A stretch of DNA of 64,000 bases from Truepera radiovictrix DSM 17093 (GTDB taxonomy: Bacteria > Deinococcota > Deinococci > Deinococcales > Trueperaceae): NCBI RefSeq assembly GCF_000092425.1, contig NC_014221.1, positions 2,795,001 through 2,859,000 of the forward strand. The letters are read 5' to 3'. Shown here piece by piece: positions 54,611 to 56,397 of this stretch (the stretch's first letter is position 1; each line of letters opens with the position of its first letter). The notes beneath the pieces are model-generated. The model had not been told where the DNA came from. It worked only from the letters and a program-made list of their open reading frames with translations, and did not search any database. Position numbers and translations under genes: made by a program.

Positions 54611-55207
54611 ATGCTGACCTTTACCGACACCGCCAAGGAGAGGGTCGCGCGCTTTTTGGCGCTGCAGCAGGCCCAGGGCGTGCGCGCGCTGCGCGTCGCC
54701 GGGGACCGCCGCGAACAGAAGCTCTGGCTCGTCAAACCCGAAGACCGCCGCCCCGATGACCACACCTTCCGCGTCGCGGGCGACGAGGGCTTCGACGTCT
54801 TCGTCGACCCCCGCAGCGCCGAGCAGCTCGCGGGCGCTACCGTCGACTTCGTCGAGGACGTCATGCAGAGCGGTTTCCGCGTCTTCTACCCGAGCCCCAC
54901 TTGGGACGACCCCGTTGCGCAGCGCGTGCAGGAGGTGCTCGACCGCATCATCAACCCCGGCGTCGCGAGCCACGGCGGGCACGTCTCGCTCGCCAAGGTC
55001 GAGGGCGACGCGGCGTACGTGCTCCTAGGGGGCGGTTGCCAAGGTTGCGGCGCCGCCGACATCACGCTGCGTCAAGGGATCGAGGAGGCCATCTGCAGCG
55101 CCGTGCCCGAGATCAAGCGGGTGCTCGACGCGACCGACCACGCGAGCGGCACCAACCCCTACTACGCCCCCGCCGAGTCGGGCGACTCGCCGCTCGCCCG
55201 CAGCTAG
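54611..55207 (+). CDS. nfuA: NfuA-like Fe-S cluster carrier
   Basis: 198 residues, leaderless-type start. The N-terminal half has a degenerate A-type (HesB/IscA-like) fold without its cysteines (VDFVEDVMQSGFRVFYPSP). The C-terminal half is a NifU-like domain: VQEVLDRIINPGVASHGGHVSLAKVEGDAAYVLLGGGCQGCGAADITLRQGIEEAI, with the CxxC that holds a [4Fe-4S] cluster between two subunits. This two-part form equals E. coli NfuA, which passes clusters to targets under stress. The isc/suf genes are not adjacent. Confidence 0.93.
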   Translation: MLTFTDTAKERVARFLALQQAQGVRALRVAGDRREQKLWLVKPEDRRPDDHTFRVAGDEGFDVFVDPRSAEQLAGATVDFVEDVMQSGFRVFYPSPTWDDPVAQRVQEVLDRIINPGVASHGGHVSLAKVEGDAAYVLLGGGCQGCGAADITLRQGIEEAICSAVPEIKRVLDATDHASGTNPYYAPAESGDSPLARS

Positions 55208-55307
55208 GCGGCGCCCCGGTATGCCGTACCCGCCCAGACCGCCTCGCCGCACTACCCTGCAGCTAGCACCCGGTAGCCTCTCCTGCGTCGACAAGCCGCG
55301 GACGCGC

Positions 55308-55433
55308 TGTGGATAACTTGTGGACAACCTGTGGATAACTCCCGTCCAACCTGTGGATAACCCGCCCGAATCTGGGGATAAGCCGTGGATAACCCGCCGC
55401 GGCACCCCCTCCGGAACCGCGGCTTGTGGATAA
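55308..55433 (+). promoter_or_regulatory. Array of seven DnaA boxes in one orientation, in phase with the helix
   Basis: TGTGGATAA (the complement of TTATCCACA) occurs exactly at 55308-55316, 55330-55338, 55352-55360 and 55425-55433. One-mismatch copies occur at 55319 (TGTGGACAA), 55373 (TGGGGATAA) and 55384 (CGTGGATAA). Start-to-start distances are 11, 11, 22, 21, 11 and 41. CAACCTGTGGATAAC is repeated exactly 22 bp apart. The last box overlaps the first possible fabH start codon. A multi-DnaA complex is expected here; whether it serves replication or fabH control is open. Confidence 0.88.
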
Positions 55434-56397
55434 CGCGGCGCACGTGAGCGTGCTCGGCGTCGGCTCCTACGTCCCCACAAAGCGCCTGACCAACGCCGAG
55501 CTCGAGCGCCTAGTGGACACCTCCGACGCCTGGATCACCACCCGCACCGGTATCTCGGAGCGGCGCGTGGCGGAGTCGGGGCAAGCGACCTCGGATCTGG
55601 CCCACGCCGCCGCCGCCGCCGCCCTCGAGGACGCCGGCACCCTCCCCGAGAGCATCGACCTCATCGTCGTCGGCACCTCGACGCCCGACCACGCCTTTCC
55701 GTCGGTCGCTTGCAAGGTGCAAGCGCGCCTCGGCTGCACCCGCGCGACCGCTTTCGACGTCAACGCGGCCTGCGCGGGTTTCTTAAGCGCCCTGCAGGTG
55801 GCCGAGCAGTTTCTCCGCGCGGGCGGGGCCACGCGGGCGCTCGTCATCGGCGCCGACACGATGTCGCGCATCGTGGACTATAGCGACCGCACGACCTGCA
55901 TCCTCTTCGGTGACGGCGCGGGCGCGGTGGTGCTCGCCAAAGGGGAGCGCCCCGGGCTCCACGCGACCGTCACCCACGCCGACGGGACGCACTACGAGCA
56001 GCTCTACGTCCACGGCGGCGGCAGCCGTTTGGACACCGAGGGCGAAAGGCCGCGCATCAAGATGAACGGGCGCGCGATCTTCCCCTTGGCCGTGCGCGCG
56101 ATGATCTCGGTGACCGAAGAGGTGCTCGCCAAAGCGGGCAAGACCCTCGACGACGTCACCTGGCTCGTACCGCACCAGGCCAACCAGCGCATCCTCAAAG
56201 CGGTCGCCGAAGGTTTGAACGTCCCCGAAACGCGCGTCGTGAGCACCATCCGCGACTACGGCAACAACTCGGCGGCGTCGGTCCCTCTGGCGCTCGACCT
56301 GGCCATTCGAGACGGGCGCATCCGGCGCGGCGACACGGTGCTGCTGACCGCTTTTGGCGGCGGTCTGGCGTGGGGCGGGGCGCTGCTGACGTTGTAA
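55426..56397 (+). CDS. fabH: Beta-ketoacyl-ACP synthase III
   Basis: 323 residues from GTG 55426, which lies inside the last DnaA box; GTG 55444 is an alternative giving VSVLGVGSYVP. FabH condenses acetyl-CoA with malonyl-ACP and starts fatty acid synthesis. Catalytic residues: Cys in DVNAACAGFLSAL, His in WLVPHQANQRI, Asn in IRDYGNNSAASVPLAL. TRTGISERR and FGGGLAWGGALL complete the signature. No other fab gene is adjacent. Its promoter is not visible apart from the DnaA-box region. Confidence 0.95.
   Translation: MDNAAHVSVLGVGSYVPTKRLTNAELERLVDTSDAWITTRTGISERRVAESGQATSDLAHAAAAAALEDAGTLPESIDLIVVGTSTPDHAFPSVACKVQARLGCTRATAFDVNAACAGFLSALQVAEQFLRAGGATRALVIGADTMSRIVDYSDRTTCILFGDGAGAVVLAKGERPGLHATVTHADGTHYEQLYVHGGGSRLDTEGERPRIKMNGRAIFPLAVRAMISVTEEVLAKAGKTLDDVTWLVPHQANQRILKAVAEGLNVPETRVVSTIRDYGNNSAASVPLALDLAIRDGRIRRGDTVLLTAFGGGLAWGGALLTL

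Follow-up and report, generated by a model that had tools for sequence, protein, structure and literature searches.

What is a run of DnaA boxes doing at the start of a fabH gene? The question is raised by a 64,000-nucleotide stretch of the Truepera radiovictrix genome, hereafter the window, which corresponds to C1:2795001-2859000 on a genome made of one contig of 3,260,398 bp. An array of seven DnaA boxes was found at positions 55308-55433 of the window (near C1:2850.3 kb). All are on the + strand, four being exact and three carrying one mismatch. They are distributed as follows:

55308..55316, + strand: DnaA box 1, TGTGGATAA, exact
55319..55327, + strand: DnaA box 2, TGTGGACAA, one mismatch, a variant also present in the T. 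radiovictrix oriC at C1:1588
55330..55338, + strand: DnaA box 3, exact
55352..55360, + strand: DnaA box 4, exact
55373..55381, + strand: DnaA box 5, TGGGGATAA, one mismatch
55384..55392, + strand: DnaA box 6, CGTGGATAA, one mismatch
55425..55433, + strand: DnaA box 7, exact, overlapping the first possible fabH2 start codon (GTG 55426)

The boxes are spaced by 11, 11, 22, 21, 11 and 41 bp, i.e. they lie at offsets 0, 11, 22, 44, 65, 76 and 117. Position, strand and mismatch count thus agree in full with the original prediction, including the overlap of the last box with the first in-frame GTG. Calculated at 10.5 bp per turn, the helical phases of boxes 1 to 7 are about 0, 17, 34, 69, 69, 86 and 51 degrees. 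The first six were predicted to lie on one face of the helix, which their angles of 0 to 86 degrees bear out; box 7, at about 51 degrees, faces roughly the same way.

Such a grouping of boxes outside oriC is well above chance. The window contains 11 box-like sites for 1.47 expected, a number attained by none of the shuffled sequences. With the background density of 0.065 site per kb, measured on 400 kb sampled from the same genome, about 2e-14 occurrence of seven one-strand boxes within 126 bp is expected per genome. No site with 2 or 3 mismatches to the DnaA box is present in 55297-55444, so that the boxes of the array stand out cleanly, and the gaps between them are unrelated. Matches with one mismatch at most and nothing intermediate fit a situation where the boxes, and not the spacers, are what matters. 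In the whole genome the exact TGTGGATAA occurs 41 times, versus 3 times for a reversed control pattern, and 31 of these 41 copies fall in eight clusters: oriC (9), a locus at C1:31 kb (4), five CRISPR leaders (14 together) and the array described here (4).

The array is located between two co-directional genes:

54611..55207, + strand: nfuA-like gene (Fe-S carrier), upstream of fabH2; NCBIfam TIGR03341, 2e-33, below the curated cut-off
55208..55425, + strand: nfuA-fabH2 gap holding the array, 218 bp, with no consensus promoter or terminator
55426..56397, + strand: fabH2, beta-ketoacyl-ACP synthase III, full-length; NCBIfam TIGR00747, 401 bits for a cut-off of 292

Translation of fabH2 may start at GTG 55426, the first in frame, or at GTG 55444, both being equally plausible. 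This gene is the second FabH of the genome; the other copy, vertically inherited, is located at C1:3036562 and is 46% identical. Among 81 searched genomes, the only close relative of fabH2 was found in G001, which belongs to the same genus (71%). In a midpoint-rooted FabH tree, whose outside sequences are nearest hits by choice, the copy at C1:3036 kb clusters with the FabH of Trueperaceae. A split with full support separates this group from the fabH2 sequences of both Truepera genomes, which cluster with Pseudomonadota and one Thermodesulfobacteriota sequence. The gene was likely acquired by transfer into the genus Truepera from outside Deinococcota, as far as the tree can tell. To call it the gate enzyme of fatty acid synthesis, as was done originally, is too strong for a genus-restricted second FabH that falls outside the Deinococcota FabH clade.

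The scan of 55208-55425 revealed no consensus promoter or terminator element. A weak TCGACA-N18-GATAAC running into box 1 was seen by eye and is not counted as evidence. As the array may be part of a 5' leader, with one box over a start codon, the repeats could in principle act in the fabH2 mRNA or bind a protein other than DnaA. We regard this as very improbable: the RNA fold of the region is ordinary (z = -1.2) and the 9-mer is the oriC box itself, the TGTGGACAA variant included.

Could the array be the replication origin? The DnaA domain match begins at C1:493. Directly after dnaA and before dnaN, 12 boxes (9 exact) are present at C1:1554-1748, with offsets 0, 12, 23, 34, 46, 73 and 83 on the + strand followed by boxes on the opposite strand, and a 78% AT stretch lies at the edge of these boxes. 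GC skew, which was taken from sampled stretches of the genome, is positive from 80 to 1520 kb and negative from 1680 to 3028 kb, with a single exception, weakly positive, at 2580 kb; at 3120 kb it is positive again. These 12 boxes, the AT-rich edge and the change of skew sign at this place locate oriC in the dnaA-dnaN gap. The genes dnaA and dnaN, whose absence beside the array was noticed originally, are at the opposite end of the contig numbering. A distance of 410 kb separates oriC from the array, which is inside the left replichore and about a quarter of the way down. Skew is negative on both sides of it, the sign changing at dnaA and not here. Being so far within one replichore and having no AT-rich stretch, it is not an origin: it shares with oriC the cluster of boxes, and neither the AT-rich element nor the skew change. 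A standard oriC was already doubted in the original prediction; the dnaA position and GC skew, proposed there as a check, settle the point. The idea of a second or fallback origin draws on seven boxes in an arrangement resembling an origin arm. It is scarcely credible, given at most 53% AT per 40 bp near the array against 78% at oriC, no arm of opposite-strand boxes, no skew change, and a complete oriC already present between dnaA and dnaN.

The resemblance to an origin arm itself deserves attention. Nine dnaA-linked origins of the genus g20, which we take from sequence to be Thermus-like, display boxes at offsets 0, 11, 23, 44, 56, 67 and 95, all on the + strand, followed by opposite-strand boxes (one of the nine is devoid of the box at 56). 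The left arm of these Thermus-type Deinococcota origins is, like the array, made of seven same-strand boxes, and it begins with 0, 11, 23, 44 where the array has 0, 11, 22, 44. The later offsets diverge (56, 67, 95 versus 65, 76, 117), and the origins have an opposite-strand arm, an AT-rich stretch and dnaA/dnaN beside them, all of which are missing at the array. The array therefore looks like an isolated left arm of oriC. Box repeats inflate any alignment between the array and oriC arms, so descent is not readable from the alignment score. A copy of the dnaA-oriC junction was considered and rejected: no dnaA 3' end or other part of oriC is found in the flanks. A plasmid source was also rejected, the one plasmid match being weak (E = 3e-6) and covering only the boxes.

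The array is also missing wherever we looked for it in relatives. Both Truepera genomes have the nfuA-like gene next to fabH2, with a gap of 218 bp in T. radiovictrix and of about 3 bp in G001, the only same-genus genome compared, which has no box near this junction. The array was therefore either gained after the split or lost in G001. None of 28 other Deinococcota fabH loci has a box array, nor has the vertical fabH of T. radiovictrix. The 80 loci carrying the closest fabH2 relatives detected among 84,980 species are likewise without one, flanks of up to 3 kb being covered. Judged by these comparisons the array is lineage-specific, occurring only in the T. radiovictrix lineage among the genomes compared, and a conserved fabH regulator is ruled out. 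Conservation had been put forward originally as a way to refute a role for the array. Its absence from all relatives examined does dispose of a conserved function, and leaves a species-specific one standing.

This narrow distribution suits a neutral origin, i.e. duplicated or transferred oriC-like DNA, or a minisatellite of boxes, under no selected function, though DnaA may still bind it. The 11- and 22-bp periods reported by Tandem Repeats Finder, the similarity to oriC left arms and the apparently acquired nature of fabH2 point the same way. A decaying relic would, however, be expected to look different from seven sites with at most one mismatch, no half-decayed box, still even spacing, unrelated gaps, and flanks free of any dnaA end or other oriC part. 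We therefore hold the neutral reading to be unlikely.

The reading that we prefer, with about even confidence, is that the array is a lineage-specific, ectopic, high-affinity DnaA-binding site which would both titrate DnaA and block fabH2. The box sequence and its TGTGGACAA variant match the oriC of the same genome. DnaA of D. radiodurans binds a 13-box origin with a Kd of 0.24 uM, and fragments of 7, 3 and one box with Kd of 0.37, 1.08 and 2.88 uM, respectively (PMC7988490). A seven-box array should accordingly bind DnaA nearly as strongly as an origin. Because it repeats the oriC box of its own genome, and because D. radiodurans DnaA binds a seven-box fragment almost like the whole origin, the array is still best interpreted as a DnaA sink or a DnaA-responsive site. 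This part of the original prediction stands. The other part, a general switch between lipid synthesis and replication, is weakened since neither the sister genome nor any other fabH checked has the array, and since the gene is a genus-restricted second FabH.

The mechanism that we infer is the following. An oriC-left-arm-like DnaA-binding site, devoid of unwinding parts, would have arisen or been kept only in the T. radiovictrix lineage. ATP-DnaA would most likely assemble cooperatively along it, and DnaA would leave the free pool each time the locus is copied, titration being the simplest global effect that can be proposed. A second effect of bound DnaA should be a block or repression of transcription into fabH2, given that box 7 sits on the first start codon and that the array occupies most of the gap's 3' half. 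Since it ends on the start codon and no other control element is recognised in the gap, this block would be the simplest local effect. Two observations weigh against this explanation: the array is not conserved in the relatives compared, and there is no recognisable promoter on which DnaA could act. The second FabH, moreover, may be of little consequence to the cell.

Titration could also be the whole story, with fabH2 unaffected and the location incidental. Regions rich in DnaA boxes favour titration in E. coli (PMC12371093), the seven boxes, 410 kb from oriC, are replicated fairly early, and a sink is in any case a component of the preferred explanation. We find a sink and nothing else somewhat unlikely: the array abuts and overlaps a gene start, the most regulatory place possible, and box clusters are already available elsewhere in the genome, at 31 kb and in five CRISPR leaders.

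In T. radiovictrix, each of the five CRISPR arrays detected with the repeat GTTTCAATCCCCTGACGGGGCAGA has a leader containing an inverted DnaA-box pair and a third box (on C1, at 111995, 471412, 477142, 2407360 and 2587613). BLAST of the leader over the phylum detected the box pair in leaders of G010, G040, G053, G087 and G089, and leader pairs were found in families f1, f3 and f4 of Deinococcota. In family f4 the pair has the form TTATCCACA-N6/7-TGTGGATAA, and Truepera, G010 and G040 have slightly wider loops; the boxes are constant, the letters of the loop are not. A phylum-wide pattern search with 40 fetched loci, for which the reversed control pattern gave 0 matches, showed that when the two boxes are 15-16 bp apart (start to start) a CRISPR repeat follows about 64-65 bp beyond in 25 of 26 cases, the remaining one being cut by a contig end. 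Over all the leaders in which the pair was seen, its distance to the first repeat is nearly constant at 62-65 bp. Since these leaders share descent within the phylum, the cases are not independent events. For pairs of other spacing, a CRISPR repeat was detected in none of 14. The fabH2 array is not a relic of such a leader: it has no CRISPR repeats beside it, and the inverted pair and the palindrome of the leaders (see below) are missing. Our literature search found no paper combining a CRISPR leader with a DnaA box.

The cluster at C1:31153-31348 belongs to another type of element, present away from oriC in most of the Trueperaceae: four to five DnaA boxes between trpF and a cupin or acyl-CoA carboxylase gene. 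Its layout consists of two same-strand boxes 20-22 bp apart, then about 142 bp, an opposite box and one or two more, with nearly constant internal spacing across the family. It is a better candidate than the fabH2 array for a DnaA control site that is conserved. In CRISPR leaders and trpF elements the boxes go with a palindrome close to CCGTCCWGGACGG, whose mean best mismatches are 2.5 and 1.9, versus 4.9 and 4.4 in shuffled sequences; in oriC the signal is weaker (2.9 versus 4.7). It is not found at the fabH2 array (4.0 versus 4.1), which is thereby set apart; a partner protein may bind at the palindrome. Genomes of genus g25 carry an inverted DnaA-box pair whose loop is 14 bp, at some 1.5 kb from the boxes of oriC. 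These pairs are located at:

G066:C23:17697
G085:C119:12608
G058:C1:3097422
G092:C2:456381
G094:C1:1310073
G049:C22:20774
G093:C1:31654

This distance is about one dnaA gene length, which suggests that DnaA may autoregulate the dnaA promoter there.

What makes the fabH2 array interesting is that it has the layout of half an origin, and that it led to DnaA boxes at other places of these genomes. The inverted CRISPR-leader pairs and the trpF element are more surprising than the array itself, and the former, which suggest that CRISPR immunity is connected with the initiation of replication, may matter more. As a tentative generalization, which we consider possible though far from probable, DnaA of Deinococcota would be a wider regulator docking at CRISPR leaders, at the trpF/acyl-CoA carboxylase gap of Trueperaceae and, newly, at fabH2 of T. 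radiovictrix; a half-origin would have been recruited in one lineage as a switch between acyl-chain supply and DnaA level, beside a DnaA control of CRISPR transcription or spacer uptake. If DnaA binds the array, this would be a half-origin used without replication, and nature would here offer a test of what one origin arm can do by itself, be it to titrate DnaA or to control a gene. In B. subtilis, lower fabHA expression slows initiation through oriC (PMC4207641), and the array would then be the reverse wire, from DnaA to fabH.

Comparison with known systems places the array among DnaA-box groups located outside oriC. E. coli datA and DARS rely on particular sets of boxes, most with IHF or Fis sites, at conserved positions (PMC4585315). 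The array shares with DARS1 and DARS2 its non-coding nature and its place outside oriC. The DARS core, however, makes DnaA release ADP. It consists of three boxes and also needs certain flanks or Fis/IHF sites (PMC4585315), and no such three-box core is recognisable in this run of seven same-strand boxes. Like datA, which has five boxes, the array is a non-coding group of boxes away from oriC and a possible sink. Unlike datA, which needs two particular boxes with an IHF site between them and keeps a conserved distance from oriC (PMC4585315), it is not conserved even within its genus, the syntenic place being devoid of boxes in G001 as in all other relatives. The closest parallel is provided by the clusters and DnaA-regulated promoters of B. 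subtilis (sda, ywlC, vpr, ywcI and others), which likewise contain several boxes outside oriC, in or near gene starts. The array differs from these by its seven same-strand boxes in one 126-bp run over a start codon, by its location next to a fabH paralogue in one species of Deinococcota, and by a DnaA binding that is putative. It is nevertheless of a kind already known from B. subtilis, where DnaA binds box clusters outside oriC cooperatively and where, at some of them, genes are activated or repressed (PMC4447404).
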